Positions 2,829-64,000 of a stretch of 64,000 nt of DNA are shown piece after piece (the first letter of the stretch is position 1; each line of letters starts with the position of its first letter). Made by a program: the position numbers and the translations under genes. The DNA comes from Ectocarpus siliculosus (taxonomy: Eukaryota; Sar; Phaeophyceae; Ectocarpales; Ectocarpaceae): contig FN649735.1 of the NCBI GenBank assembly GCA_000310025.1, positions 1,221,338 through 1,285,337 of the forward strand, given 5' to 3'. Below the pieces are notes generated by a model, which was not told the DNA's origin, ran no database searches, and saw nothing but the letters and a program-made list of their open reading frames with translations.

Positions 2829-3976
2829 TCAACCAAGCGCGACCTCCACCCAAGGAAGGTTCCTCGAAACTACCATGCATGCATTCCTTTTTTTCTACAG
2901 GTAGTCTAATAGACTGAGCCGATCGTAAAAACTGAGGCAGTATGTATTCCCAAAAGCTAAACAAAAAACACACAACGTGCTAACTCGACAAATGCGACAC
3001 ATTTACGTTCTCGTACGCATACGTGGGCACACGTTCCAGTCTACAGCCAAGTGAGTTGACGAGTAACATGCCAAGACGCACCAAACAATGCGCTGTGCGT
3101 AGACGTCCAAAACAGGATTTAGACACACACACATTCATTGAGCAGGAGTCACTGCACTGGGAAAAAAGGGCAATATACAGTGGCATGTACTCGGAAAACA
3201 ATTCGCCCGCCAGATACAAACTGGTTTGCCATGTTACCATCAAACCGCATCAATTTACGCTGACGATGCATGCGTTCACTTCTTCGGCGCACGGCCGTAT
3301 GAAGCCAACAGGGCGAACCGGGCGACCCCTCTGCTGCGGTGTTGTTGAATTTCCTCCGTGAACACCACCCGCTCGTATTGTCGTGAGTAACAGCAGCGTG
3401 CTTCGAGTATTTCCTTCGTTCGTGGGTTATCGCCAAAGGCCAAATCTGGAAGTACAAAAGGTGTCCATGCCGGCCACGATAACGTTTCGCTTCGTCGTTG
3501 TACGGCGGTCCTCCGTCACTACAACACCGGAGGACCTAGGCTATAATATAAACAAAAAGAGATAATAATGTTTACGGGAAACACTACGACAACGCGGTCT
3601 TCACGCGGAAAGGATATTGAAGCCCAAGCCATGAGTCTGGTAAGTTATTCTATTGGTCTGAGAGTGCCAATATTTAAGCCGTCCATGTCGGCAATACAAC
3701 GAAAATAAACGGACAAACAGTTTATAACCGCAAGCAACCAGAGCCTAGTTCCAGAACACGTAGCTGAGCACGCAAGTTGCCTATCGGCCGGGCATCTTGT
3801 CTACCCCACGTCTCGGGCGCAACCAACGTCGTCGCCGACCTCACGCAGGGCTGTCACCGGTACGCCACCGAGGCACCATCACCAAAGCACAGCAAAACCA
3901 AAAAACAGAAACAGAGCACACGACAGCTACGCACCGACGTTACCCCGGCCTACCTATGTATATATACCGGAAGGGA
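2829..3976. other. No gene recognised; downstream flank of the glycosylase gene
   Basis: This holds only short unrelated open frames. It lies immediately 3' of the minus-strand glycosylase gene and probably contains its 3' UTR. No polyadenylation signal could be assigned. Confidence 0.4.
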
Positions 3977-6700
3977 TCATTCCTGCTGAATGCCGCGAAC
4001 CACGTCGCGGACTTCTCTTAGGTCGTTTCTCGCGTGCCATCGCACGCCTCCCTCCTGCCGACTGCGCTCCCCCGAGTTGCGAAGGAGGTAGCTGGGGTGG
4101 AACCAGGGCATGATCAGCATGTCGGCGAGCCTGCCGCCGTGTATCTGGTTTCAGTGTGGTTGTGCAGGGGGAGGGATCAGGAGTTAAAAAAATCTGGACT
4201 ACAGGAGCGGGTCGCGGTGCAAGCGAACAAGAGGCACAGGGAAACACGAAGAAAAACCATGATCTGCATTCGAAGAATTTCAAATAAAGTGAGACCGTAG
4301 GTAAACCTGTCGCTGTTTTAGGTATTGTCAAAGGCTTTCCTGAGGTCCGTCAGGGTCACGACGGAATGGTGGTAAGCCCTTGGAGCTACTCTAGCGGGCT
4401 ACGAACAGGAATACCCCGGGCCAGAGCTCTGACGTCCGCGGGCTACGACCAGCGTTTCGTTTGGCGCCGCCTGAAGTATTAGTTACAGCAACGGGTGGCG
4501 GGTGTTCGAGCTGCGGCAACGATTACCTCGGCCAAAGCTACAGGGTCCGCCCACTGCCCTCGGGCCCTGGTGATGCCCCGGGTCTCGTACGGCAGGAGCG
4601 CCTTGGTTGAGCTAGCGCCTGGATGGGGTGGGATGGGTAAGGAGGTGACTTCCTATTCGGGGTTTTCCTTCGCAACATCAACGTTGACCGTGCTTCTATT
4701 TCCTCTGAAGAACAAAGCACCGATATTCCGAAATCTTTTAGCGTACACCTCCATCAGAGGTTAGGATTTCGACCCTTTGCTGCAATAAATAACAGCCCCA
4801 AATCGACAGGAGGGAATCGAATCTCCGACGAAACTCGGAGATTAGGAGCAACCTGCTTAGGAAGAACCATTGCATGAATAAACAACTGTTTCGTGTTTTT
4901 CCTGCTCGCACTCAAGCTCTCGTGGTATGTAGGCAGATGCAGCGCTCGCCATTCTAGACTGGACAGGTCAAATTCTGAGTTGCCCATTTTCCTACTCCCT
5001 CTGCCATCTGGATTCCCAAACATTTTGTTCAGAGATGGCGCTTCCGTTCAACGTTAACCCCAGCCCTATCGGCGCTGAAAATGCAACCCACGACTACAGC
5101 AAAGCCGGGTTCTACGGTCGATGGCAACATGCCACACAACGGATAACCCCGTTGACGTCTACGGGAAATTGATGAGACGCCAGTCTATGGAATGGTGTCG
5201 AGAAACCCTAAAACGGAATAGGCTCGAGAAGTATCCAGAGTTAATGCCTAGACGGAGAAGCACGAATAGAGTATCACTGGGTCCAAGTCCAGGATCACTT
5301 TTGTAGTAACGCGTACGGGGATCCGCAGCCTAACCGCACGAGCGTCAGCAGCCTATCCGCAAGGGCATCATCAACACCGACAACAACAACCCTTGAACAG
5401 CAAACAGGGCAGGCGTACCAAGCAGTACGATGACGTGGGGGTCGACTAGCCCTATCTCCTCTAGGAGAAACGGCAGGTAGAAGTCCATCTCCTCGGGGGT
5501 AGGCGTTCGGTTGTCGATCGGTCTCCGCCGCACGATGTTGCTGCGGCGCGAGGGGGACAGGCATGCGACAGGCTTAGGGAACCGCAGAATATTGCGCAGC
5601 AAAACAACACGGTACGCGTAGCAGGTAGGTCTTCGTCCTTTAGGTAAACAGGTGATGGAACACTGCGAGCACGGCGTCTATCCGCGTCCTTTCGAACTTG
5701 TAGCCTCACGAGGATATACATTCACCGAAATTGACCGCCCCGTTCGGGGATCAACACTAACCGCCCCTGAGAGGAACCCGGCCGCGGCCGAAGCGCCAGC
5801 ACCCCCACGGTAGTTAGTACAGCAGACAAACATGCGCCCGGAATACTAAAGGCACTGCTTTTCAACGCAAAGAAGAGCAACAAGCAAAGGTACAGCTTCT
5901 CGACCAACACGCAGAGAGACCTTCTTCTCCGTTTATTGTCTGGTACCGAGAGGCGGGTTTCGTCTTTTCGTTCTTGGCCCTTGCGTCCACAGTCCAGGTA
6001 GTACCTGGTACAAGGTAGCAGATTTCGTCTATTCTTTTTTACACCCTTCAGTCCGCAGCGAACGAGCGCACCTGACGTAGACCTCCCGCTCGGGATCAAA
6101 GCCGACCGCCCTCAGCATGTCGTCCAGTAGCTGCCCTGACCGACCGACGAACGGCACCCCGAGCCTGTCTTCCTCGGCGCCCGGCGCTTCCCCGATAAGC
6201 ATCAGGGACGCCGAGGGGTCCCCGCGAAAAACGACGACCCTTCCCCCATCCTGCGAAACCCCCCAAGCCCGTCGAGTTCTCTATTGGTCAATCAAGCGTG
6301 AAAACCAACCCGTTTGGCAACAACAATTTTTTGCTTCCGATTGGGGGAGAATACGGTTACTGAAAGGATGGGTCGGGATTGTTTGAGGCCATGTACTTGG
6401 TTTTGGCCGCCGAGGTTGCGTGCGATTGTCTCGAATGTGAAAGCAATGAGAGACCGGAAGCGTGCGCGGTTGGGGACAGCTGCGGTTTCGCGACGCACTC
6501 GAACGTACAAGCAACCAAACACACAAGCGAGCCGTCACACCAATGGTTGCCACATTGGCACACAACCACGCCGTTGGGGCAACATAGACCAACACGCCGT
6601 TGGGGGTCCACTGGCAACAGCAATGGGTGCGGTCAATTGAAAATCGCTAGGGCACCGGAGACTGGGCTCGTGCGGTCTGGTCATCGAGCAGACGAAACGG

Positions 6701-7045: not shown

Positions 7046-7744
7046 CTACGGGACCCGAAACACAAAACAGAAGAAGTAGGCATTCGAACACAGAACGTTC
7101 CACGTGTGTGTAAGGACGGTAGTAATTAAGAACTTGAGTCTCAGCAAACCAAAACAAAGAACGTGGTCAAAATAACAGGTGCTCAGTCGAGAAGTTTGTC
7201 CACTAAAAAAGAACCTGTTGTTGCCGTGTGGGGGTACATACCCTAGAACAAGGCCCCGGCCAAAATTAGAGATTCTAACGTGGTGGCGCGTTCTGTACGT
7301 GTAAACCATGCCGATCGTCGTGTGCAAGCCCGGTGAATCTGTGTGACACCACAGGCTCCAGCTGTTCTCATACCCCAATCGTTCGTTCGCTGGTTGCATG
7401 TCAATATACGAAAAACATAAGGTGTTCAAGCGATAGCGAAGGTTATGTGTACTCGAAACATCCCACGACTACTTGGGCTCAAAAGACCAGTAGTGTTTGG
7501 CTCCACCCCCATACATAGGGGTCCAACAAAAAAAATAAAAATACTTTCGCGCGAAGCGCGAAAAGATGGGGCGGAGAGAGACATCAAAGCAAGCGTAGAT
7601 AGATGTGGATGGGGCCTACGCCACCACAGAGGTCACCAGTGCACACGCTCACACATCACCCGACACCACCAGTCAGTCAGGGGATGACTGAGAGAGCTGT
7701 TTAGCTCTCATAATCATCAGCTACATGTAGCTGCTGCCGTGCAG

Positions 7745-8330
7745 GATGGGTGTGCACTTGCTTTCCTCGCTTTCGCTGCTAGCAGCGGGCGACGGGCTCC
7801 AAAAATCGCCCCCGATGCCTCCTACGATGTGCATATTTGGTCGCCCTCCGCCTACAGCGTTGTGTACGTCTCACTTGTCTCTGTGTCGGGGGTGCTGCTG
7901 TGGTGGAAGAAAAGCTCGGCCTGCAGACGAACAGCCCGCATACAGATTTGACTTGTGTGCACTCGCAGGTTCCCTCGCTTGCTGCTAGCAGGCGGCCTCG
8001 GGGTCTCAAAATAGCTTCCGACGCCAGCCAGCCTTTGGCCGGACTAGGCCTACAGCAGTGCGTACGTCTCGTTGTCTCTGTTGTGTGGGGATGCGTCTGT
8101 GTGGGAAGCTCCAAAGATCGGTAGGTTGAGGTGATGCAGACGGACCGCGGATTGATTTGCGTCGTCACTCGCTTGTGCTGCCGACAGCAGGCAAATGGGC
8201 TGTAAGAGTCACACCCAACGCCTCCTATGATGTGTGCCTTTGGCTGCCCTTGGCCTACAGCAGTGCGTATGCTGCTGTGCTGGCTGTCTCGTATGTTGTC
8301 TGCGTGGTGTGTGTGGTGCTGGTGTGCAAC
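7745..8330. repeat. Degenerate tandem repeat, about three units of ~200 bp
   Basis: Three diverged blocks begin near 7,745, 7,965 and 8,160. Each contains a CTGCT-rich start, then a GGGCTCCAAAAATCGCC-like stretch, a GACGCC/GCCTCCTACGATGTG-like stretch, and a CCTACAGC-GTGCGTACGTCTC-like end. Units 1 and 3 translate to similar peptides (DASYDVHIWSPSAYS and NASYDVCLWLPLAYS) in corresponding frames, but there is no long shared open frame. If the proposed targeting exon of the glycosylase is right, the repeat sits in its first intron. Confidence 0.65.
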
Positions 8331-9151
8331 AGGATTTCGGGGATTCTCCCGAGAGCGTCGTGCCCATCGCCCAATCATCTGTCTCTGTCTTACAACACGT
8401 TTTACAAAATCGACGTGTGATTGGTGGGAGATGGGTGTCTACCCGGCTCTACCCCTCTAAAACCTAGATAATTGTAGGAAGTTGTTCCGTGTCTTATAGA
8501 AGTACGAAAATTTCCCTATTTATGGGTGCTCTGCCTAGTGTTTCAGTTTTCCCTGCCGTGCTGGCGCGAGGTACATACAATACATTCGTTCTGGGACAAA
8601 GAAAAAAGCGCAACTTTGGTGGAGAAAGAGCCAGTGCGGTACACTGCTCGCATTAACAACTAATCCGTAGGTGACACACGACCCTGGGCCAAATATAGGA
8701 CACTCTGCGCATGTGTGTATGGATTGCATACATTTTCAGGTTACCAACGATTTCCGACACGCAGACAGGACAGGTAGATCCAGAACAAATACCGAAACTA
8801 TGGTGATGATCCGGGGATGCAAAAGAAATATCCCCGCTTTTTTTTCAGCATCCAAAGACCTTGACTTTGGACGCCGCTTGCCACTGGTGTTGTTGTTTGC
8901 TTTTGCTCTTTGGTTGAAGCACCTTCAACACCGTTGAGATATCTCCTACCCTTTTCTCCCTCTGGTGGCGTACAACCATGGATATTGGGGACAACGCGCA
9001 AACAACACATGTAGCATAGTCTACATCTACGGAGATCTTGACCGGAGAGGACAAAGCGGAGAAGACGAAACCAACATCCAACGCACGAGCGAGGTGCCTC
9101 GCACAAACGCAGCACACCCAGGCAAAGCAACCAAAGTCGAAACACGCTCAC

Positions 9152-16724: not shown

Positions 16725-18663
16725 TCATAGCTCGTCCGCGTCGATGAAACCGTCGCCGTCTTCATCGCGTTCCTCGCCGACCTCGTCCCTCGTAACGAAG
16801 CCGTTGTGGTCCTTGTCCAGAGCCGTGAATCGGGTGTGAATCTGTTCGATGTCCTCCTGGGTTACTTTTTCCTGCGACAGCAGACGGTTTGCGCGTGCGC
16901 AAGGGCTCTCGAGTGAACCGCGAGGACATTAGCGAAGGCAGAGGCACGTAGACAGGCAGCTCACGGCATTGAAGCCCCCCAAAAGCGCGTACTGACGCTG
17001 GCGCCGGCGATCAAGGCTGGACGCTTCGAACGACCCTCGGGCATGGAGTTACAGTGCAAGGGCCTAGTGAAGAGCATACTGGATGCCATTCAGTCCCTTT
17101 CCGGACCTCTTCTCCCTGTGAGAGATGGGAAGCGTCCGGCACACGGTTGACTACAATTTTTTTTTTAGAAGTTTCCAATTATTTTATTCGCTGAAACCTC
17201 CATGAACAGCTACTTTTGTTGTGTTCTCGAAACGGAGATATGTTCGACCAAGCCGAGTTCGAGGGCTCAGCAGTGCATCGAGATGCTTATTTCTCGTCGA
17301 CAAAGTTCCCCTAAACGCTCCCTTTCAGAATTTATATTTCAAGTTAATAAAAAAAAAAATTAAGTCAATCGAAGAAGAAATAATACAGCGATATACGCCG
17401 AGAGTGTGGAGATGAGTCATTTCCTTGTGGTAGCGTCGAATTTCGGTACAGCAGTAAACGCCCCTTTCCCCGACAAAAGATTGAATCGCTCATGACGGGC
17501 AAAATCGCTGCTGAAAAACCGAGTGGTGTGCGAAATGATCTGAGCGATCCCGACCGGTGGGGCGATGACGAACTTCAAATGTTCAACGCCACGCCGACCT
17601 TTGAAACACAGCTCGTCAGGAAAACACCCAACACAAACGTACGCCAAATTTCGCAGCAGAAAAGCTCTCTTGACTATAACGTGGCGAGCGGTGCACCGTA
17701 CAGGCTGTTGATGTTGGACACCACGCACGGCTCCTATTCTCAAAAGTCTGGTTAGCGAGGGTTGCCGAAAAAGAAGCGCGAGCTGCGTTTTTCGTGTGCT
17801 CTGTGCGGTATTTCCGAGACGTGGGTGTCCACAACCTGCGGGCGTCGATCGCCAACTCACTTGTTTGATGAGGGTGTGAACCATGAACTCCATGAGGCTG
17901 ACGCGGTTGTCGTTGTCCGCGTCCATGGCCGCGTACTCGTGCGCCGTAACCGTCGCCAGGAGGAGGCGCGTCTGCCTCTGCTTTACGCGCTTGCTCGCTT
18001 GCATCTGCGCTTCCCCGCCCGGGGGAGACGCGTGGCAGGGCGGGGTCGCAAAGAAGAGAAGAGAGGAGACGATTTTCGTCGTCGTCGTTTTTCACCGAAA
18101 GTCTTCGACGGAGCCAACGAAACGAAACGCAGCAGTGCCTCACTGCCACCATTGTGCAAGTCGACAACCCACAGGCCGTCCAACCCCAGCCTCAGCATCT
18201 TCTAATTAGCAGTTTTGGACGACGTTCAGGTCTATCCCTACCACCGTGACCTCCAGCGGAAAGCTCCAAACATCAAGCGCACATTTACATCCCGATACGT
18301 TATCCTACGCAAACGCGAGCCCCGGCAAACTTGGTGCGGTGCAGAAAAACGGCGTATTTCCGATTATCGAACCCAAACACCCGTAAACCAACAACGTAGC
18401 CTTGTCTTTATCCTCCCAATACCAGCACAAAAGCTGTCTTCGACACTGATTAGCCCAGCTTGTGCACCTACCTCGGTGTAATCCGAAATAATCTTTCCCA
18501 GCAGCAGGGTGGACAACGGCAGGAAGAAAATGGCGAACAACCGTGTCCCGGTCGAAGACGGGAAGTAGTCGCCTGTAGCAATTGGTCAATCAAAAACTCA
18601 TGAGAACAAAAAAAACGGCGTGATTCTTCCCGATAACAAATCCGACACGACACTAAACAAGGC

Positions 18664-18695
<32 letters not shown>

Positions 18696-19051
18696 CCAGC
18701 AAACTTGACCAGAATGAAAAGGATAAACCCACTCTGAGCAACATTCCAGCAAGAGTACGTATTATAGTTACCCTTCAACTGGATCCCAGATTAAGTGCAG
18801 AAAACCGTTTCGGTCAGCGGAAACTCCAAGGCTCTGCTCTGCGCGGCGACTCTCACCATACCCCACCGTCGATGAGGACACTACCGTAAGGTAAAAGGCG
18901 TCGATCACCGACATGTGGCCGCACACCATGAACACCGTTGTGCCCACCCCCACGAGCAGCAAAAAGTAGAAGACGCCCAGGCCCACCTCCACCTGTCCGG
19001 TCGATCGTCGTCGTCGCGACATGACCGTTGACCAGGGGAATAACAAGTCCG

Positions 19052-19109
<58 letters not shown>

Positions 19110-22016
19110 TCGGCAGGGAAATCAAACCACAAACCACACAGAACCACAGATGGTGCCAGTCCGCCTGTCCCTTATATCGACTCTTGGAGAGAGGGGTGGA
19201 ACGGGCTCATTGATTCTGCGGTTCGCGTGTCGTCCGTGCCGCAGGTTCATGGATCGCGCGTGAGTGAGATGGGAAAGGCATGTATGCCGTGGTTGCGGGC
19301 GCAGCGTAGAACGTCTTGTGTAGCCCAAATCAATAGCGCATGTCGCTGTTCTGCTTTGCAGACGACCTCAAGAGAAACTCGGAGTCAAGCGCGTCTGTGT
19401 GCATCATCGCCGGAGTCGGAGGAGGAAGGACCGGCCGCGTGTCGAAAATATCTCAAAAGCAAGAAAAAAAGGAAAAAAAAACATCGAGGGGGTTCCGCCG
19501 TTTCATCTTCTCGGTCGTCGTATCACCGCACCGGACCAGCGGCAGCGTCGTTCGCGCACGGGAGGGCACCAGTCGTAGCTAGCTAGCTAGCTCCGCGTTG
19601 TTGCCCTTACATTGATTCTATTGACCAAGGCGATGTCGTCGTCGTCGCCAGCGGTGTCCTGCTGGGCGGCGGACGTGCCGCCGTTGGTCGCGCCGCTCCC
19701 CCCCTGTGTCTGTACCCGTAAGAAGAAAGGAACGCCGACCGTCATGGCTGCACCGTGCAATCCTATTGGTTGGTGGCACGCGGGTCTCACGACGATGCGC
19801 TTCTCGCCCCTCCATGACTACAAACCACGTCTTTTAATGGACATGTAATCAATAGTGTGGGGGTGTGCGAAGGCCACAAAACGAAAAGAACCGCAACAAG
19901 GAGTGTTGTTTTCGGTTCCGGCTCTCTCACCCAACGACCGCCCACAGCTTTACCTTCGCGGCGGTGTCAGGATCTTCCGCCCCCATGGCCTGCGCCCTGT
20001 TCTTCGTCAGGAGGTTCACGAGAAGGTCCTCCTGCGGAGAGAACATAATCATCACGAGGCGGGTCACATACAAGGGTTTCGAACAAAAATAAAAAACATG
20101 CATTTCAACGGGAGAGTGCGTTCAAGGATCGGAGGGGGCATCGTCGTTGCGAGTCCACGCGGTGGTATTAGGTCAAGCTATCCAAGCAGCTATTCGATCG
20201 ACAACAGAAAGCTAAGATATCTGTCCATTTGACGAGGTGTGGTTTTGGCGACACAACGCAATACGAGCGGAATTCTGCCGCGTTTTCTCTGCGGGACATG
20301 TTGTTGGCCGGTATTGCCGTCGCCACGTACGGTACCCCACGTAGCCCAACCCCCCTCCGCGCCCCCCCCCTGCCACCGATCAGTAGATTCTCCTTGACCA
20401 AGTACGCCAGAAACTAAAAGCGCGCCCGGAAGTCGGGGGTTAATCGAACAGGAAAACAACGGATTTCCGTCCCGAACAGGTTGATGCGCTGAAAACTAGT
20501 CGAACGAATGAAGGAAGGAGCCCAATTTCAATTGTAAATCAAGAATACAGCCCTCTATAATTGCGTAGGAGTCGGTATCGCCAACTAAGCCATTCTCGGC
20601 TCATCGAATTTCATGCACAGTGTGGCAAGCGTGGAAGGCACCGACTACTAGAGGTCATCTCGCGGCGTCCCGTACCTCGAAATAGGTGAGAGCGCGATNN
20701 NNNNNNNNNNNNNNNNNNNNNNNNNNNNNNNNNNNNNNNNNNNNNNNNNNNNNNNNNNNNNNNNNNNNNNNNNNNNNNNNNNNNNNNNNNNNNNNNNNTG
20801 GTTGGGAGTGGGTTTCCCAAATTAAGCCTTTTTGGGTTCTTGAAATTTCAGCCCCGGTGGGCCAGGGGGGGAGGGCCCGGATTATTGGGGGTCTTCTGGG
20901 GGGTTCCCGTCCCTGAAAATGGTGAGAGAGAAGAGAGAGAGAGAGAAAGAGAGAGAGAGAGCGAGGCAAGCTACGCAACCAACGCCACCCCCCCCCCCCC
21001 GCGAATCATGCTAAGAGGACGTCCTGCCTGCTCGTCCAAGAGGAGCTCAACGAGCTTGGACAAAAAGGCCGCCACCATGGCCACGCCGATGAGGATGTAG
21101 AAACAAGCGAACAGCTTCGTCACCGGCTTGTGAGCGCTCAGGTCCCCGTAGCCCACGGTCGTCAGGGTAACTGGAGGGCAAGAAAGCGATTGCGCCAGCA
21201 CAACACGGGATTGACAGAGAGGGTCAGGGTTAGCGTTATCGCTGTTGTGATCATGTGCTCTGTTCGGACGCTCGACCCTGCCGGATGGGTGGGAAGCGAT
21301 CTTGATTATATTTGGCGTCGAATCACCGTGGTTCCTCCGTGATACGAGCGCCCCTGCAGAGACGATGTTGGGAATAAAAAAGAAGTGCGGGGATACATAC
21401 AGGTTTGGTAACTCTGAGGCTGACCAGCGATTACAACTATGTCAGCGACACATGAAAAAGAACAAACGAAAAATAAAATCGGGAACATCGTAGGGTGGGG
21501 AGAGCGGGGGCGCCTACGGCCTGGCTGGCGAATGCTAATGTCCGCCCGTGGTGACGAGTGGACGAAGGCCACTTCGAGGGCCGAACTACTTGGGAACGCA
21601 AAAAACAAGACATGCAAAAACATAGCAGAACACGATAAAAAACCCTCCGACGCACTCTGTACGAAAACCGCGAAATCTAAATATTACAAAGGACGAAAAA
21701 AAAAAAACGAAACGCCTGCCCTACCGACGCAGAAGTACAGCGCGTCCAAGAAGCTCATCCCGGCGAGGGTCGTGTACATCAGGACCCCAAGGCACAAGTA
21801 GCCGAACACGGTGGCAAGCGACAGGGCCAGCAGGCCCTTCCCGGTGAGGGGCGCTCGAGGAGCCTCAGGAATCTCCGCCTGGGCGGCCACCGCCTCCAGT
21901 CTCGCCTCCTCCGCCGCTTCCAGCTCCGAGGCCGTGCGGGGTATCGACGGCGGCAAGGCCGCGTCCGCGGGTAAGATGGGGGACGACGGGCTGCCGCCGT
22001 TGTCGTAGCCAGCCAT
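16725..22016 (-). CDS. Two-pore-domain K+ channel with C-terminal EF-hand loops (TPK-like), 377 aa
   Basis: Eight exons join in phase: 22016-21725, 21170-21028, 20031-19954, 19703-19611, 18992-18857, 18572-18472, 18004-17861 and 16871-16725. The protein has TM1 (~61-84), pore 1 with TLTTVGYGDL (selectivity filter ~102-107), TM2 (~117-140), a Gly/Asp-rich linker, TM3 (~206-226), pore 2 with SSSTVGYGDY (~244-249) and TM4 (~257-278). A cytosolic tail follows with loops DADNDNRVSLME (309-320), DKDHNGFVTRDE (348-359) and DEDGDGFIDADE (365-376). Length and order match plant vacuolar TPK channels, which conduct K+ and are opened by cytosolic Ca2+; membrane location here is not established. Both filters and all loop ligands are intact. 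Oddities: the last two Ca2+ loops are only five residues apart, the protein ends one residue after the last loop, and intron 2 would use a GC donor (CAG|GCAGGA). Confidence 0.92.
18664..18699. repeat. (CAA)n microsatellite
   Basis: A run of AAC/CAA trinucleotides of about 36 bp in the intron between the pore-2 exons of the K+ channel gene. Confidence 0.9.
19059..19106. repeat. (GA)n microsatellite
   Basis: About 46 bp of uninterrupted AG repeat in the intron just upstream of the TM3/pore-2 exon of the K+ channel gene. Confidence 0.95.
20699..20798. other. Assembly gap of 100 N
   Basis: Exactly 100 N bases, a conventional placeholder for a gap of unknown size. It lies in the K+ channel gene intron between 21,027 and 20,032. 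The right flank (20,799-20,990) is rich in homopolymers and GA runs, which may explain the break. Real intron length is therefore unknown. Confidence 0.98.
20926..20961. repeat. Imperfect (GA)n microsatellite
   Basis: AGAGAGAAGAGAGAGAGAGA-like run next to the assembly gap and a poly-C stretch at ~20,987-21,000, inside the K+ channel intron. Confidence 0.85.
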
Positions 22017-22148
22017 GAAGGGCTGGTTCAGGCTGGTGCTGGTGGTGTTGGCCAGGAGGCTGGACCGCTCCGAGCTGAGGGTTTGTTGGCACGCGAGCGG
22101 TGAAAGGCGGCCGCGACGGCGCGGGGTGTTGGTTTTACCGGCGATTTC

Positions 22149-22405
22149 CCAGTTTGACCAGTGGCCACGCGTTTTCCCTTGTCGACACGGAACACCGCTA
22201 GTTGCGCCTACAAACAACGAGACAAATCTGCTATCGATTCTGGCATACTTAATGCACAAAGGACGTTTTTTGCTACGGTGTTAAGAAAAATTACGGCGGT
22301 TTCGACGTGTTCACGCATCTTCCCCTTTTCGACGCGAAACACCAGTCGTTCCGCCTCCAAAAACACACATAACTACGGTTCGACGTTCTGGCATACTTGA
22401 CAGAC
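22149..22405. repeat. Diverged tandem duplication upstream of the K+ channel gene
   Basis: Two neighbouring blocks of about 125 bp (about 22,149-22,270 and 22,280-22,405) share a colinear order: CACGCGTTTTCCCTTGTCGA versus CACGCATCTTCCCCTTTTCG, then a conserved CGGAACACC/CGAAACACC, then TTCTGGCATACTT near the end. They sit within 400 bp upstream of the proposed channel start codon, so they may lie in its 5' UTR or promoter. Confidence 0.65.
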
Positions 22406-46841: not shown

Positions 46842-47189
46842 TATCTTGGGGAAGAGTCCTTGGACCCCCTACTCTCCACGAATCTCTAGCATACCACACA
46901 CGTGCAAGGGAAGTCCTCCAGAAAATTAATTCCTCCCCCCACCAACCACCATCTCCGTGGATGTATGTGCAGTATTTCTCCGATAAACTATGCTGCGAAT
47001 ATATCGAATACCCCCCCTGCTCGTATTCATGGTTATGCAGCGGCAGCATGTCAACGTCGCCCTTTTCCGTACCATTTCTTCCGAAAACAACAAAAAAATA
47101 ATCGCCGAAAACCAAAACAAAGACAATACTAGGTCCCTCAAAACAAGCGAAACCTCCCAAAACACAATAGACAACGAAGATTCCAGCCA

Positions 47190-47300
<111 letters not shown>

Positions 47301-47789: not shown

Positions 47790-50335
47790 CCGTGTGTTCC
47801 TCCTCTCCACGCAGCTCTTAGGGTTCTGCTGCTTCACGACCACACAAGAACATATTTGTAGTCCTTCGGGTCCACGCGACGTTCCTTGACTTGACAAATA
47901 CAAATTCTTGCGATCTACGAAAGAGGGGAGAAAACTGAAGCAGCACCAAGCGTCAGTAAGACGGAAAATTCTCGATCACAGAACCCCCCCCCAGCAAATG
48001 AATTTAACACACGTTCTCGAAGGTGGTACAAATACACCTGCGTGCTTTTTTGTTGGCCGTAGACATTCTCTGACAGCAGTTACATTGGAGACTACTACAC
48101 ACGCCCCACCTTCAGAGCTCCCTTGTTCTTCAGGCTTAAGGCAACAACACGGTATTCCTATGTAGGCCAGCGAAGATTACATTAACAACGCATGTTTTAC
48201 CAATTCCGAAATTTATTTCCGGGCATGATGCGACCGACGTACAGGAACTGATTGCCGTGTTGAGAGGATCGTCGTGGCGAGCTCCTCGTGAGCAGATGAT
48301 CCGTCATGTCTGCTCGATCACACTACGCTCCTTCGAGTTGTATTTTCCACCGAGAAGAGTTGTTCTTGAATCTGCTTGAACTGCTCTGTTTCTCTAAACT
48401 TGTGATAGAGATTTTCCCTTAGCATGTTGCTGACTTGTTTCGTCGCTTTTTCCAGAAGGTGCTCTTTGTCATCCTGGAACCCGATGAAGCAGTAGAACGC
48501 ACCACGCGACGGGCAACGTCACAAGAAAACGGGCATTGCATTCCGAGCCAGGCGTGTTTCCTACCCAGGCGTTCGTTTTCGTTGCTGCTGGGTACACCTA
48601 GCTGCAGAGAGCACGACCCCCATCCTTCAGTTCCTATTGTCGAGAGAAAAAATCTGGTAAGTATTCTATTCCCCACTCCGAATCGATTGTATGAGGCAGG
48701 CCGTATTAGATAATCAACGAAGGGAACCAAACTGGCTGCAAGAATACTGGACTCACCAGATTGAGGCGTTCGAAGCTCGCACGGTCCACCTCCCTGAGAA
48801 TCTCGTTTCTGATTTTGCTCTCGATGTTCACTTCGAACGGAGAACCCTCCCGGATGTATTTGTCTACTATGGCGGCGAACTGCTCGAAATTGGGGTTGTG
48901 CTCGCACTCGTTGACAGCCACTGCTGCAGACTCAGGGTCCTTGCCAGCAGTAGAAAATTTGGACACGGCATGAAGAGCAGAGTTGAACTCGTCCGCGTCC
49001 ACCAGAAACATGAGCGACTGAGCATCGTGCAATGACCAGCGAATGCCAACAAACGTTGCGGCAGAGGGGAAAAATCTATCTTGGGGACATTGAGTGATTC
49101 CTAGGGATTGACATGTACTTGACCGACGTAGGTGGCTAGCCACACCCAGTTTCGTCCTTGGGGGCGTGATGGGCAGATTATTCCCTACAGAAAAATGAGC
49201 ATGAAGAGAACGCCGATGCAAGCTGTTTGTCACGCGGTTCACGGCATCTAGGCAAGATACTCACCTCGCTGCACAAGGCGTTGCGGCAGTACTCTTCAAA
49301 CGCCTGAGAATGGCAGAGACGCATTCGGTTGAGGCATGGGCGGATGGTGATGGACTTTGAGCGCACGGCCAAAGCAAGGGGATAATCGACCACGATCACA
49401 ATACGATTTCGCAGGGGACGGGGCAAATCGGGCTTGCGACAGTTTCGTTGTTGTTTGGCAATAAGTTCGGTGCGTATGTCTTGGCGGATCGCTGGCAGAC
49501 AGCGGCACTTGCAAACCATTGTCGGTAGGTTGCTGCGCACCGCACAAGCAGCGTCATGTACACGATAGGGTCCTTTGCAGCTCGGTGAGCCTTGGAAAGG
49601 TAGATACGAAAGGCATTTCTACCGGCTGACCCTAGGTATTTTGCTTAGATGGTGATGAGGAGGATTGCACGCAAGGGGAGGGTGCGTGCTTGTGCCGCAT
49701 CTCGAAACCAGAAGCTCAAGCAACAAATGGCGGTGTTACGTGACCTTCGATGTCCGTCTTCACCACAGTACGGAGTCTTTGGGAACCAATCAAAGTCCTA
49801 ACTGGCCGGGCACGGAAGCAGACCATCACAGTTTCGGCTACGTGCTTCGCATCGCTGCAGATGCAGTTGCTGCTGCTTCCGCTAGAACTTATCCGATGTT
49901 GACTCGAACCATTGGATACTCTTTTAACTCTACTGCGGCACTGCCAGGAATAATTTGCTACGACCAACTGCTGTGTCGTCCTCCGGCTAAGCTACAAGGG
50001 GATATCAGTGCTACATAGGTCTCAGTTTTAATATGCTCAGAAGGAAATCTCCTGCAGCACAAACCCGGGCTTCGTTCAGACAATAGACGCGAAGGCGCAG
50101 TCGAACACAAGTGGTAAAACATACCTGGAATAATGGTGGGAATTGGATGATAAGATCCAGCACGGTCCCACCCGCAGAGCTGGCGGACTGGGACCGCAAG
50201 GTGTAACTGGCCTCGACTGCAACTTTGCTTCTCTCGTGCTTCGTCCACGGGATGTACGGGAAGAGTGACGAGATGAAACTCATATTTTCCGTTGCCGACC
50301 CCCTCGATAATGCAGCCCTCACAGGTTGGATGTTG
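47790..50335. repeat. Segmental duplication, copy A
   Basis: This block, from the 3' flank of the 7TM-RGS gene through its exon 6, is colinear with 61,443-63,966. Shared landmarks include GAAGCAGCACCAAGCGTCAG in the flank, every RGS-domain exon, the intron sequences between them and GATATCAGTGCTACATAG. The offset is about 13.56 kb at the 3' end and 13.63 kb at exon 6, so intron lengths differ little. Copy A continues upstream; the corresponding part of copy B is beyond the window. Confidence 0.93.
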
Positions 50336-53300
50336 CTGGTGTGCACGAGCGAGACAAGGTTCATTGGTCATCGCCACGGCATGAGTAGTGGATGAAGAGT
50401 CGAACCTTGTACAGCAGTGGTCAATGTGTTGCCTTCTACAGGGCTTAGCCGTAACTCGTCGCACGGCAAGCTGGGCAAAGGGTACCTAGACAAACGAAAG
50501 TCGCCCACACGCAAGTCTAAACTATAAATACTGCAGGATCAGAGGCGGCTCGGATCCGACACAAAGCATTCGTGGTCGTTGGGCTCCCGAGCAAGAAGCT
50601 CTTGGGCCACTCTAGTGCAACATCGCGACTCACGTAAACCACAAGGAAGGTTGGAACCGGACGGCCATCCACAGGACCAGGACGTACTTGTCGGACTCCG
50701 TGGCAACGGTTACAGTCGCCATCACTTCGCAAAGATTATTGACGAGACAGAGGCAGCGAGGAAAACCGATGAAATAATGCATTCTTGCAATTCTTGGTGT
50801 TATGTAGCAGGGAAGACATCAAGAAGGCACTAGCCCAAACAGGGTGACAAAGGAGGTCACGTCAGACAGGAACGACACACCACAGTAAGATGAGAAAAAA
50901 GTAGGAGGGGGAGATTAGATCATCGAACGTGATACATGAGACGAACGCCGAATGCGACCCGCACCGTAGCGCAATTGACGTTCAACCAACAGTTCAAAAG
51001 ATGGAAACGTCCACGCTGTATGTCGTTGAACTACGCCGAAGCCAATATTCGCCAAAGAGAAGCATTGAGAAATACCCAGACTCGTTGGGTGTGACGGACA
51101 ATACTCTCGTTGTGGGGAGGTTATAGTGGACGTCATTGAGCCTCACCAGTATTTGTGCATCCAGTGCCTCACCAGTATCTGTGTATACAATGACTACTTC
51201 CCACCAAACAGCTTGCGATTGTCCACCGGTAGACAGATCTTTCACCGCGTGGTGCACTCTGCGTCCAAAGGTTTGTTGCTAGCCTCTAGTGGTGATCTTC
51301 TCACAAGTGAATTTCAAAATAGGGGATGTGGTGGGAAAGGGACGGAAGGCACATCGGGAACTCACCAAGCGCTGCCATCGCGAAGACGCCCACTTTTTGA
51401 ATTTCAAGTGACATGTCGAAAATATCTTTAGTCTTCCTCAGTTTGCCGAATAGCGCGAACGATGCGCCTAAAGTGAGGAGGGTGTCCGCTACGACCACCC
51501 CGAGTGTGAAGTAGGCTATCCTGTGGTGGCACAGGGCAAGGACCAACATTCGCCAGCATGAGGGAGCCGGTCGCTGAATGGTGATGGGTGACTTTGAGGG
51601 TTGAGGCTCACAAATTGTCAGCTGAAGGTGTCCTTAACAATGATGTGTCCTTGGCTGGCACCAACTCGGAATCCACGCTACGGGGCCAGGAGGTACATGT
51701 TGTCCGGTTAATCCTGGTGTCAAAAGTGCGTACATACGCGAGGTTTCATATAGTCTATCTCCACATCAACCAGAGCATGTCATATCGTGACAGCCCGGCA
51801 TCCCTATGCACAACCTTGACGTTGCCCACGTTGTTCTACAGCATATAACTACTCAACCAAGAAGTAGCCCAATCGGGAATATGTTGTTTATATGTTGGTC
51901 GGATACATGTTGAGTAGCGCCCGTCAGATGTATTGCTTGCCTTTTTACCCCAACTATCCCGGTGGCAGACCAGATCACGATCTCGAGAACAGCAAGGGAA
52001 ACAAGCGATGTCCGGACCATCAAGGATTCCTTGACAAGTTTCCCGAAGCGCCCGCGCATAGCAGGATTGTACATGACAAGCAGCCGGAAGCCTCTCATGA
52101 CGTACACCCCGGTGTAAGTCGTGAGCAACATTGGCGCCAAGACAAGGTCAACCGCTGAGGCGTCCGGGCTAATCTTCAGGATGAAGCGGTAGATGGAGAC
52201 GGTTATCATTAAAACACCGGAGCAGCCCGACAATGTAGCTAGGACAGGTGACCTGGGAAAGAGGGGACATGTTGTGCGGTTGTTGGACAAAACAGTCAAT
52301 AGTAGAACGAACTACAGTAGTCAATTAGTCGGACACATAGACCTACAGTACAGCAGTGGGGCCGCATCTACACTTTTGAGTATTCTTCCAGCGACATTGT
52401 TTGCGTAATTTGGTCCTTCACCTGGCTACGTATGTATCTATAGACCACAGTCGGATTTGACAAGGGCGGTCCACCCTCTTATATCGGAGCCCCTCGTTAT
52501 ATTGGTGTAAGAGGGTACCCTCTTACTTGGGGGCACTCTATTGTACGGTACCCTCATACAAAGGGGGAGATCGGGAATAGCGAGAAACACAGGCACTTTG
52601 ACTACAGCACAGCTCACCAGTATGCCTTGTATATGTGAAAGCATGTATGTGTGGTGGACTGTAGAGCACGTGTGGTGGGCTGAATGCCCGAATTGGCATG
52701 TCAAAAGCAAGCCGGGTGATTGTGATCGTATCGGCAACGCTTTCCGTTTTGTGTTAAGTTGTTCATGGAGTTGGAACTGTTGGAGAATAATTGCCTCTCA
52801 GCCAAGTTGACGCAGCCATTGATACTAGGAGATAAAGTACATGTTCATGCATCATTGCAAGATTTTTTTAATTCATACAGAGTCGAACAACATGCTACAA
52901 TTCTTCGACACCTCTCCGACCATGAGAAATTTCATGTACACAGGCTACAAGTAAGTGTTGTATGCACCAACGAACGGTCTACCTCCTCCTGGCCCCTGGC
53001 GCACGCCATACATACACACATTGCCCACATTTAAAGAGGAGGGCTCCCTAACGTCTGTCTGCGGTGCAGGTTTTGAACCGTATGCTGAAAGGAACGAAAT
53101 TCTAGCAGTTGCACAAACAGCCCCCGGCTTCTACTTGGCGCCGCGATGTGTGTGTTTCCGTGTGTGTTTTACGTTATCTTTATTGTTAGCATTGACCTCG
53201 CTAACCAGTTAACCAATGAAAACACGTCAGTCTCAGTGCCCATGAACACAGAAAGTGCTTCAAAGGCCACGACCTGGGACCCCATGAGGGGGCACCATGG

Positions 53301-54770
53301 GGGAGGCTAAGCTACTCTCCAGATGAAAGATAGAGACGATAGTAATAGAAGAAAACCTCTTTACCCAAGGCTGCCATTTCGCACACGTCTTCGTTTCGGA
53401 GTGCTGCCATCATCTTTGCATCATCCTCCTTGCATTTGCCACCAGTTTCAGCAAAATACCATTATTCTTTGGCAGCTCCTCTCTGGTCTATTCCTCCTGC
53501 GGCGTTTTGTTTGTGTGTGAGTGAAAGGCCGGGGGAGCCACACACCGGCGACAGTCCCTAACTTACAAGCCCTGCGATAAACCCCCTCAATTGTGGGGTG
53601 ACCCCACAATAAAGGGTCCGGTCTATGTATATGGGTAACCCTACTCACTTGTAGCGGGTCGAGTCCGTGACAACCGATTTCGACCCTCTTGTAACGGAGC
53701 CAAGACTGTACCTATTCTTACTAACCAAACAACAAAATGGTAAGACTCAGGGTGGCACGTCAACGGTGCACAAACCAAATCTGCAACACAGCTGAAAGTC
53801 GCGATATCTTTTCGTCTACAACAATTACATCTATGTACCTGAGCTATGGGGTATGATCTTCTTTATGTACTTCTATATGCCAACCACCCCCGAGCCTTTG
53901 TTCCACCTGTCTGGCAACAACCAAAGCGATGTTCATCGACTGCAGCGCTGGGTCCGAAAGCTCACAACCCACCGGATGTGAGTCCCGCTGGCAGGAATTG
54001 CCGCCTTACCTTACGGCAACTTGGAATTCGTGGCGCATGCCCCACATCTGGGCAATGTGACTGAGGCAGACGAGGGAGTACATCGTTCCACCTGCCAAGA
54101 CGATCGCATCGAGAGCAAAGACCATCATGATCACTGAGGGCGGCGATCGGTGTGTGTAGACGTTGTTAAGGACAGGTCAAGGCGCTCGTTCCTCGTCCCG
54201 ACCAGCTGGTACCACACCGACAAACAACCGAATCGGTACAAACATGTCCCGCGAACCGGGAACCGTGCGCATACGTAACGCCAGACAGCAAAGAACACAA
54301 ACCTCCAAACACCAACCGGAACAATCCTGGAGCGCGAACTGCCGTCGTAATAGGAGATTTTATTATTCCTTAATAGGAGATGCGAACATGTACCTACGTA
54401 CACAACGTGTATTGCGCCGCATTTCTGACAGTCCCTTTCACCCCGCTTGACCATGCTACCATGCCAATTTCGGGCGGGCTCGTGGAGTCTCTCCCGTGGA
54501 GAAACTCGAGCTTGAACTTACTCACATGAGAGAAAAGAGTTATCTCCTTCTCTCAGTGGTCATGGCGGCAGCTACGGAGGTCTGGTTGCGCGAAGACTAC
54601 GCGAGACAAGTGCACTGCTGCTTGACTTCAAAGACGTTGACGAGCAGTCTGGGAAGCGCTAAGGACTCACCACACTCGAGCTTCCCTTTTTGTCCCGTCA
54701 GCCGGCGGCACTCCGACTCGCCGGCATGTGCGAACGCATATCCTGCTGTTGGAATTGAGCATATTGTCAT
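48318..54770 (-). CDS. 7TM-RGS protein (seven-transmembrane receptor-like with RGS domain), 497 aa
   Basis: RGS domains accelerate GTP hydrolysis by G-alpha subunits; in plants the same fusion (AtRGS1 type) acts at the plasma membrane. Nine exons join in phase: 54770-54671, 54133-54010, 52252-51949, 51573-51366, 50724-50634, 50335-50125, 49303-49265, 49017-48757 and 48473-48318 (TGA at 48320). Seven hydrophobic segments occur at about residues 35-63, 76-99, 107-137, 156-176, 194-220, 236-256 and 259-275. After TM5 comes FGKLRKTKDIF, resembling the plant family. The RGS domain (~335-485) includes AFEEYCRNALCSE, SLMFLVDADEFNSALH and IVDKYIREGSPFEVNIESK, the latter containing the conserved EVNI/ESK G-alpha-contact region. 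The seventh exon is only 39 bp. The start ATG is the first in its frame after an upstream stop, but an additional 5' exon with a signal peptide is possible. All nine exons are open. Confidence 0.9.
52473..52525. repeat. Nested inverted repeats in a 7TM-RGS intron
   Basis: A perfect 18-bp palindrome TAAGAGGGTACCCTCTTA lies at 52508-52525. ACCCTCTTA at 52473-52481 pairs with TAAGAGGGT of the same block. A related CCCTCTTGTAACGGAGCC string recurs at ~53,684, matching CCCTCTTATATCGGAGCC at ~52,474. Confidence 0.7.
53590..53610. repeat. Perfect 10-bp-arm palindrome
   Basis: ATTGTGGGGT, one G, ACCCCACAAT. It lies in the second intron of the 7TM-RGS gene; function is unknown. Confidence 0.85.
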
Positions 54771-61442: not shown

Positions 61443-63966
61443 CCAAGTGTTTCTACTCTCTACGTGACCCTTAAGACTCTGCTGCTTTGCGACCATAAAT
61501 AATATACATGTGACGTTTCTTGACTTGACAAAGACAAATTCTTGAGATCATACGAAATAGGGAAGAACCCTGAAGCAGCACCAAGCGTCAGAAAAAGGGG
61601 AAATCTCTCGAGCACAGAAATCCCCAAAGAAACGATTGACTTGCTTCGAAGCGGGTACAAACCTGTCTGTGCGCATTTTGTGGACATGACTAGACATCTT
61701 CGGACAGCAGAAAACTTGGATCATACTACAAACGTCCCACTTGAAAGCTCACTTGTTCTTCAGGCTTTTAGACAACAACACGGGCATGATGCGACCGACG
61801 TAGAGGGACTGAGTGCCGTGTTCATAAGATCGTCGTGGCGAGATTCTCACGAGAAGATGACCCGCCATGTCTGTTCGATCACACTGGGCGCCTTCCAGTT
61901 GTATTTTCCACCGAAAACAGTTGTTCTTGAATCTGCTTGAACTGCTCCGTTGCTGTAAACTTGTGATAATGAGATTTTCCCTCAGCATGTTGCTGACTTG
62001 TTTCGTCGCTTTGGCCAGAAGGCGCTCTTTGCCATCCTGGACCCGATGAAGCAGTAGAGGACACCACGTGACAGGCAACATCGCCAGAAATCGGGCGTTG
62101 CAGGCGTACGTATGCAGGTGTAGGGAACATTCGTGACCGCCAGCCAGGTGTGTTTCTTACCCAGGCATTTCGTTGTCGTTGTTGCTGGGCGCATCCTTGC
62201 CTGCAGAGAGCACCACCACTGTCCTTCAGTTTCAATTTTCGAAGCGCACGTATCTGGTCAGTGTTGTACTCCCCACTCCTTCCGAACCAACTGTTTGAGG
62301 CAGGCCGTATTAGAAAGTCAACCAATGAACGAAAATGGCTGCAAGAATACTGGACTCACCAGAGTGAGGCGTCTGAAGCTCACGCGGTCCACCTCCCTGA
62401 GAATCTCGTTTCTGATTTACTCTCGATGTTAACTTCGAACGTAGAACCCTCCCGGACGTATTTGTCTACTATGGCGGCGAACTGCTCGAAATTGGGGTCC
62501 TCGCGCTCGTTGATAGGCAACGCAGAAGACTCAGAATCGGCGCAACTAGTAGTAAATTTGGACACGGCATGAAGAGAACAGTTGAATTCGTTCGCGTCCA
62601 CCAGAAACATCAGCGACTGGGCATCGTAAAATAACCAGAGATAATGGGTATTTGGGAAGAAAACAGAAACGTCGGGAAGACATGTTTCAGAACGTGAACG
62701 GCGGCGAGTGGCAAGCTCTGCCTAGTTTCGTTCTTGCGGGCGCCAATGGTAAGGCTATTCCCTGCAGAGAAATGGATAATATGCGAATGCTGATTTGCAT
62801 ACACAATTGGTGCCACGCAATGTCTACAGCAACCCTTGTTTCAACCATTCCGCCGGTGTGGGGTCTTAGACTAAGGAAGATTCTCACCTCGCAGCACAAT
62901 GCGTTCCGACAGTACTCTTCAAACGCCTGAGAATGGCAGAGATGCATTCAGTTCGGCAAGGGACGTATGGCGATGGGCTTTGAACGTACGGCGAAAGCAA
63001 CGGCAAATTCTGCCACGACGTAACGCGTGTTTGCTCCGTGGGTTCCGACAACGGTCGCCGTTGCCCGGCTAGACTATTGATGTCCATGTAGTATTGGGTG
63101 TACGCGCGTTGGTAGACAGCGGTATTTGCAAAGAAATTTCCGTAGGCCGACGCGCACCTCACAAACAGAGGTACACACTAGCGGTCTGTGCAGCTTGGTG
63201 AGACTTGGAATCGATGGGTACGAAAGGCGGTACTACCGGCTGACCCTAGGTGTTTCGCGTGGACGGTGATGAGGAGGATTGCACACAAGGGGGAGGTGCG
63301 TGTTTGTGCAGCACCTCGACAACAAAAGCTCAAGCAATATATGGCGGTTCTACGTGACCTTCGACCTCCGTCTTCACCGAAGTATTGGGGTCTGTGGGAA
63401 CGAACCAAGATTCTAACTGGCCGGGAATGGCAGCAGCCCATCACAGTTTCGGCTACGTGCTTCGCATCCCTGCAGATACAGTTGCTGCTACTGCGCTACT
63501 TCAGCTGGAACTAAACCGATACTCGAACTTTTGGATACTCTTTCTACTTCTACTGCTGCACTGATTTAACCAGGAACAATTTGCTACGACATGCTATTGT
63601 TGTGTCGACAGCAATGCTACAAGGGGATATCAGTGCTACATAGCTCTTGGTTTCAATATGCTCAGAAGGAAATCTCCTGAAGCACAAACACGGGCTTCTT
63701 TCAGACAACAGAACAAGAAGGCGAAATCGAACACAAGCGATAAACATACCTGGAATAAAGGTGGGAATTGGATGATCAGATCCAGCACGGTTTCACCCAC
63801 AGAGCTGTGGGACTGGGCTGGCAAGGTGAAACTGTTTCCGGCCTCGACTGCAACTTTGCTGCTCCCGTGCTTCGTCCACGGGATGTAGGGGAAGAGTGAC
63901 GAGATGAAACCCATCTTTTCCTTTGCCGGCCCCCTCAGTAACGTGGCTCTCACAGGTTGAATGTTG
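61443..63966. repeat. Segmental duplication, copy B
   Basis: Colinear with 47,790-50,335 in flank, exons and introns. The similarity is still present where the window is cut, so the duplication extends beyond 64,000. Confidence 0.93.
61879..63966 (-). pseudogene. Second 7TM-RGS copy, RGS-domain part, frame-disrupted
   Basis: Exons corresponding to copy A exons 6-9 lie at 63966-63750, 62926-62888, 62616-62360 and 62036-61879, with conserved acceptors and donors. Exon 6 keeps NIQPVRATLLRG ... LIIQFPPLFQ and the 39-bp exon keeps AFEEYCRNALCCE. In the exon at 62616-62360, one T of a short run is missing near 62,417 relative to copy A, so the frame runs to a stop soon after FEVNIESK. The last exon has two extra bases near 61,968. 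Both lie in the RGS region, so a normal RGS domain cannot be made from this sequence unless these are assembly errors. The transmembrane exons would lie beyond the right edge. This is a host-gene duplicate in decay. Confidence 0.8.
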
Positions 63967-64000
63967 CTGGTGCGCACGAGCGGGACAATATTCATTGGTC

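Follow-up and report, generated by a model that had tools for sequence, protein, structure and literature searches.

The locus and its family

Brown algae evolved complex multicellularity independently, and little is known of how they perceive external cues. A 64,000-nucleotide stretch of the Ectocarpus siliculosus genome (contig FN649735.1, positions 1,221,338 to 1,285,337; hereafter the window, whose own numbering is used for all coordinates within it) carries on its minus strand, from 54128 to 48318, a row of exons that reads as seven hydrophobic segments followed by an RGS domain. This raises the question whether the alga makes a receptor-like membrane protein that switches G proteins off. 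By its predicted structure the window gene is a real gene, which combines a seven-helix receptor-like part and a G-protein switch-off domain in one membrane protein. We put the probability at about 0.7 that this protein is a membrane-bound GTPase accelerator for G-alpha, probably modulated by a ligand, and one of an expanded seven-transmembrane (7TM) RGS family. The assignment draws on the gene structure, the domain content, relatives with the same order of parts, two invariant RGS contact residues and the G-alpha genes of the genome; it presumes expression and a location in the plasma membrane.

That the transmembrane (TM) and RGS exons are parts of a single gene is supported chiefly by relatives that carry both in the same order. 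A search with the window protein (E <= 1) across the genome that contains the window (189 Mb, 492 contigs) yielded 76 exon-sized matches in 27 clustered loci. TM and RGS matches stand in gene order on one strand at 15 of these loci, the window gene and a decayed tandem copy included. Clustering followed a simple rule on strand, order and distance, and the family size is a lower bound. A further member beyond the 27 loci (L006, contig C15) was found through its RGS exon; its TM part matches window exon 3 with an E value of 0.0015. L005, ~0.2 Mb from the window gene, is 34% identical to it over the length, and its RGS domain scores 50.8 bits. The TM-RGS fusion proposed in an original prediction, made from the letters of the window, is thus backed by predicted relatives with the same order.

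Automatic modelling of ten loci recovered exon 3 in ten, exon 4 in nine, exon 7 in ten, exon 8 in eight (not L039 and L045) and exon 9 in five. Exon 3 of L041, L043, L044 and L046, where the matches had an internal stop, has an open frame in the models as far as a GTGA-type donor. Weak or wrong-looking are exon 2 of L039 and L047, exon 5 of L047, the exon 3 start of L045 and exon 5 of L005 as read by eye. The family alignment (A2) comprises seven proteins, two of them without exon 9; the partial L039, L044, L045, L047 and L006 were left out. More 7TM-RGS loci are clustered on contigs C14 (333-397 kb, five clustered loci) and C20 (1172-1194 kb, three), not all of which have matches to both parts.

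Overall, the family looks like a brown-algal expansion of a known architecture. As far as our literature search shows, the large size of the family in a brown alga is the new aspect, the architecture being already known from plants, fungi and protists. No paper on 7TM-RGS proteins in brown algae was among the titles and abstracts listed; two surveys, Bradford 2013 and de Mendoza 2014, may include it. The at least 15 loci (one decayed) that fuse receptor-like helices to a G-protein off-switch are concrete candidates for brown-algal sensing. They also offer a further setting, besides plants and Naegleria, for asking whether 7TM-RGS proteins accompany self-activating G-alpha. The stramenopile setting assumed in the original prediction agrees with the EsV-1-7 repertoire of the genome, in which 150 of 150 scored matches, among 880 candidates, pass the cut-off; we take EsV-1-7 expansion to be a brown-algal trait. 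One scan of viral contigs for giant-virus relatives gave 35 pattern matches, of which none was confirmed. Contigs C102, C18 and C7 (at 2249406) weakly match the L006 TM part (E 4e-4 to 0.04), with no known RGS partner; these places are possibly TM-only relatives.

Exon structure and the tandem copy

Exons were placed by splice site and frame. In the nine-exon model of the original prediction, AG is present at all eight intron ends, and the donor is GT in seven introns and GC in intron 3 (AAAAAG followed by gcaagc), which is also kept in the tandem copy. All nine exons join in phase, but as traced they give 482 residues instead of the 497 that had been stated; eight of them hold up and encode 447 residues in phase. 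Exon 2 (54010..54133) is the first coding exon of the preferred model, with the ATG at 54128, TM1 and the first basic loop; it is supported by its splice sites, 82% identity in the tandem copy and an ATG start common to relatives. Exon 3 (51941..52252) spans TM2-TM4, contains the RGFRLLVMYNPAMR stretch after TM3 and ends at the GC donor, and is supported by splice sites, the tandem copy and counterparts in all ten modelled loci. A GT donor at 51948 was rejected for this exon, as it would put exon 4 in a stop-containing frame. Exon 4 (51366..51520; TM5, the third basic loop and the start of TM6) has its splice sites and a counterpart in nine of the ten loci. The weakest exon is exon 5 (50634..50724), with the end of TM6 and TM7 (RFQPSLWF); RF...(L/V)W counterparts occur in L040, L041 and L042, and weaker ones in L045 and L046. 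The NIQPVR linker and the first RGS helix lie in exon 6 (50125..50335), and more of the RGS domain (AFEEYCRNALCSE) in exon 7 (49265..49303), both supported by splice sites and the modelled relatives and the latter also by a Pfam match. Exon 8 (48757..49017) holds the RGS core with the conserved Asn (EVNIES), supported by splice sites and Pfam matches, and exon 9 (48318..48473) the last RGS helices (ENLYHKF) and the TGA stop, supported by splice sites and the tandem copy.

The proposed exon 1 (54671..54770, minus strand) was judged to lie outside the coding sequence. Its identity to the tandem copy is 46%, compared with 82-91% for exons 2-9 and 48-82% for the introns, and its donor is not kept in that alignment. 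Among the eight automatic models with an exon 2 counterpart, five (L040, L042, L043, L045 and L046) have their ATG in that exon, a few residues (up to ~13) ahead of TM1; of the other three, that of L005 used an acceptor site in place of the ATG, and those of L039 and L047 look wrong, as mentioned. Read by eye, L005 and L006 likewise start with an ATG just ahead of TM1. Because of the low identity of exon 1 and the starts of the relatives, this exon was dropped, and the window protein likely starts at ATG 54128. The N-terminus is short, as had been pointed out; its shortness is a family trait.

Upstream of the window gene, on the same minus strand, lies the 3' half of the tandem copy (61882..64000), the rest of which (L004) continues past the window end. 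This copy is decayed: exons 3 and 4 have one in-frame stop each, exons 3, 5, 8 and 9 contain indels that are not multiples of three and therefore shift the frame, and the donor after exon 4 is changed. The window copy is open through all eight exons, and its splice sites are complete. Between the two copies, exons 2-9 contain 97 replacement codons and 47 silent-change codons; this is only mild constraint, as would be anticipated where one copy can vary freely. Both the family membership and the decayed copy in the same window had been overlooked in the original prediction.

Intron 6 (49304..50124, 821 bases) lies inside the RGS domain and was found at two places in the genome, the window gene and the tandem copy (76% identical); with just two places, a mobile element was rejected. 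It is absent from the seven relatives that could be judged. Exons 6 and 7 form a single continuous exon in L039, L040, L043 and L046 (gap 0) and, by eye, in L005; a 12-base gap (a multiple of three) separates the two pieces in L041 and the pieces overlap in L042, both of which were read as continuous, while L044, L045 and L047 were not judgeable. Since the intron is confined to the two tandem copies, it was either gained before the duplication or lost elsewhere.

The RGS domain

The 447-residue protein matches the RGS family of Pfam (PF00615) with 52.7 bits (E 7e-14). The nine-exon translation scores 52.4 bits (E 8.2e-14, residues 323-465) against a curated cut-off of 23.9, which bears out the C-terminal RGS domain of the original prediction, and RGS is its sole strong Pfam domain. 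All seven aligned members match PF00615 (E <= 1). A genome search with the RGS family gave three matches and missed the window gene, because its RGS domain is divided among four exons. Solved structures were searched with a profile of the seven family proteins, for which the best match was human RGS2 (PDB 4ekc, E 1.1e-4); 14 structure sequences were found at E <= 0.1, every one of them RGS (4igu, labelled CG5036, counted once). The seven-member profile was needed, since the single window protein gave no RGS match at E <= 1 when searched whole and weak ones (E 0.2-0.5) with the RGS part alone.

Glu309 and Asn373 are invariant in the seven aligned members. We take them to be equivalent to RGS4 E87 and N128, and Ser310 and Asn417 to occupy the RGS4 N88 and D163 positions. 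Activity of the domain as a GTPase-activating protein (GAP) is probable.

The seven-helix part

The family-mean hydropathy of seven members has seven peaks (1.91, 1.63, 1.57, 1.79, 1.87, 1.67 and 1.14), in agreement with the seven hydrophobic segments predicted to precede the RGS domain; the next peak, 0.82, lies at the start of that domain. In the same members the mean number of lysines plus arginines is 3.0, 6.7, 4.3 and 4.3 in loops 1, 3, 5 and 7, and 0.3, 1.1, 1.1 and 0.6 in loops 0, 2, 4 and 6. Because basic residues concentrate in the odd-numbered loops, the positive-inside rule suggests an extracellular N-terminus and an intracellular RGS domain, as in G protein-coupled receptors (GPCRs); hydropathy and these counts are the basis of the topology. 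Three residues of the loop after TM3 (R96, P103 and R106) are invariant in all seven members, at 29-38% identity of the TM part. Alignments of the TM part with the first 230 residues of six relatives were each compared with 300 simple shuffles and exceed them by 34-49 standard deviations, values that are inflated, as such shuffles also destroy the hydrophobic pattern. A search for Dicty_CAR receptors gave no matches, and its control was likewise empty.

Ratios of replacement to silent substitution rates (dN/dS) were obtained for the three pairs with enough codons. They are 0.60, 0.50 and 0.41 for the TM exons against 0.26, 0.23 and 0.20 for the RGS exons. The last values of each series (0.41 and 0.20) belong to the window/L040 pair, in which silent sites are near saturation; the TM ratios of L041/L043 and L005/L047 are from exons 3 and 4 only. 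Two L039 pairs with 13 RGS codons each were excluded (L039/L041, 0.79 for TM and 0.96 for RGS; L039/L043, 0.62 and 0.30). A constrained output domain with a faster-changing sensing part would fit a receptor family; alternatively, the difference may arise because membrane segments generally change faster.

G-alpha partners and proposed mechanism

The G-alpha family (PF00503) has 22 exon matches in the genome, of which five contigs carry at least three each and two further contigs a single one. On all five of the former, switch II was read with its catalytic glutamine (DVGGQR), and on three of them switch I was read too (RTTGI on two, MTSGV on one). At least five predicted G-alpha genes with the catalytic glutamine thus provide partners. 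The original prediction had further assumed that the G-alpha subunits activate themselves, which would make GTP hydrolysis the control point; this does not follow from the sequence. A review describes plant, algal and protist G-alpha as exchanging nucleotide without a GPCR (PMC9224535). Ordinary receptor signalling is also favoured, because an Ectocarpus GRK-like protein is described as having a receptor-binding N-terminus (PMC3307776). A class C GPCR exon on contig C17 (1175605-1175802) scores 33.6 bits with its neighbours, barely over the cut-off of 33.5.

We propose that the protein would sit in the membrane with almost no N-terminus outside, seven helices and the C-terminal RGS domain in the cytosol. 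Most likely this domain acts as an off-switch, binding G-alpha that is loaded with GTP and accelerating hydrolysis of the nucleotide. The helices, for their part, most likely respond to an external cue by altering the access of the RGS domain to G-alpha, whether through a change of conformation or by taking the protein out of the membrane, by analogy with AtRGS1. For control of the window protein by a ligand we consider the chances about even. In principle, the whole family could be a lineage-specific expansion of inverse receptors in brown algae, with many 7TM-RGS proteins whose sensing parts change fast and whose GAP domain is constrained, and with a few G-alphas held off until a cue lifts the brake, in parallel to and independently of plants and Naegleria; this extension is tentative and on balance doubtful.

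Alternative explanations

Several observations weigh against a working receptor-like GAP. Pfam searches (E <= 1) with the window protein and its relatives found no 7TM family for the TM part, so that the comparison with 7TM profiles suggested in the original prediction came out negative, and TM7, in exon 5, is the weakest segment (peak 1.14). The exon joins of the window gene are predicted from genomic sequence, and exon phases were imposed when the relatives were modelled. Of the 76 genome matches, 22 contain internal stops; three of these belong to the window gene and overrun an exon end, but some relatives may be decayed. With the nearest copy decayed, 97 against 47 codon changes would point to mild constraint only. 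In the RGS domain, the N88 position is Ser in all seven members, and the D163 position is Asn in four and Lys in one of the five members that reach it; because of these residues, GAP activity is not certain.

The same residues would suit an RGS domain without GAP action, one that would bind active G-alpha as a scaffold or effector, as would the ~nine extra residues that the family has ahead of the last helices relative to human RGS2. However, Glu309 and Asn373 are invariant, and in the known GAP AtRGS1 we read Thr and Asn at the N88 and D163 positions; we regard this explanation as unlikely. Somewhat greater weight is due to the view that the seven helices are a mere membrane anchor, in which case the protein would be a constitutively tethered RGS without a receptor role. 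The TM exons are less constrained than the RGS exons, and for the class VI proteins of Aspergillus oryzae the RGS domain by itself is described as restoring the phenotype (PMC10794492); the entire protein was required in two other fungi according to the same source, and an anchor would need neither seven kept segments nor the kept residues R96, P103 and R106. A mere anchor thus appears improbable, if not markedly so.

The window gene may also be silent or decaying like its tandem neighbour, with working copies elsewhere. It is predicted from sequence, and the decay next to it and the codon changes between the copies would agree with this. Its eight open exons and complete splice sites argue for a working gene, as does the dN/dS of the window/L040 pair with the saturation noted above, and we hold silence to be quite unlikely. 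Finally, the join was made by hand and intron 5 rests on sequence, so that a 7TM protein and a cytosolic RGS protein encoded by adjacent genes could have been wrongly joined. The same TM-RGS order at 14 further loci (one being the decayed copy) and at L006 rules against two separate genes, the phase matches between the end of exon 5 and the start of exon 6, and this model was rejected as extremely improbable. The reading as a membrane-bound GAP with a receptor-like part is preferred.

Comparison with known systems

AtRGS1 and the land-plant 7TM-RGS proteins share with the window protein the order of seven helices and then a cytosolic RGS domain. The RGS domains align by blastp (E 3.9e-6, one-to-one, with a single AtRGS1 sequence), whereas blastp and hmmsearch gave no significant similarity in the seven-helix part with that sequence. 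A whole-length hhalign alignment of the two proteins reached a probability of 75.6%; its column confidence was low across the helices. The likeness to AtRGS1 claimed in the original prediction therefore holds for the architecture and the RGS domain and does not extend to significant sequence similarity of the helices. The window genome also differs in having at least 15 loci (one decayed). AtRGS1 is described as a GAP on a self-activating G-alpha, which promotes GTP hydrolysis and is removed by sugar or kinase signals (PMC3386157, PMC3718340).

Fungal class VI GPCRs (GprK, GprR) resemble the window protein, by description, in combining a 7TM part with a C-terminal RGS domain, and their RGS domains are reported to have GAP activity in a yeast assay (PMC10794492). 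A large protist family, likewise likened by description, is that of Naegleria fowleri, for which 28 putative 7TM RGS members are given and tested RGS domains are stated to accelerate several self-activating G-alphas (PMC9283941); this organism belongs to a different supergroup from Ectocarpus. Among four diatoms, a complete RGS domain is given only for Thalassiosira pseudonana in one survey (PMC3727952), and on that evidence 7TM-RGS abundance is not a general ochrophyte trait. The RGS part has its best profile matches in human RGS2 and the other RGS structures. Human RGS2 has no seven-helix part.

Other observations in the window and the genome

There was no Rfam match at gathering scores in the window. 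A long TC/GA simple repeat at ~46900-47300 reads as SLSLSL or RERERE in several frames. Potassium-channel-like exons lie on the minus strand at 17420-22280 (Ion_trans_2, 49.2 bits at 20974-21441) and include the pore motif TVGYGD. The stretch at 17420-18091 (DADNDNRVSLMEF) resembles an EF hand, has no Pfam match and may belong to the same gene, which looks like a tandem-pore channel. Elsewhere in the genome, L007 (contig C14, 1824500-1834400) combines, at ~3175-4344 and 7270-8513, PAS stretches (PAS_9, 65.3 and 65.5 bits) with an RGS domain (27.9 bits). The PAS stretches contain GRNCRFLQG, which we take to be a LOV blue-light signature, and L007 is a putative RGS-LOV photoreceptor-like gene. 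A gene of this kind is described from the fungus Botrytis (PMC8993538).

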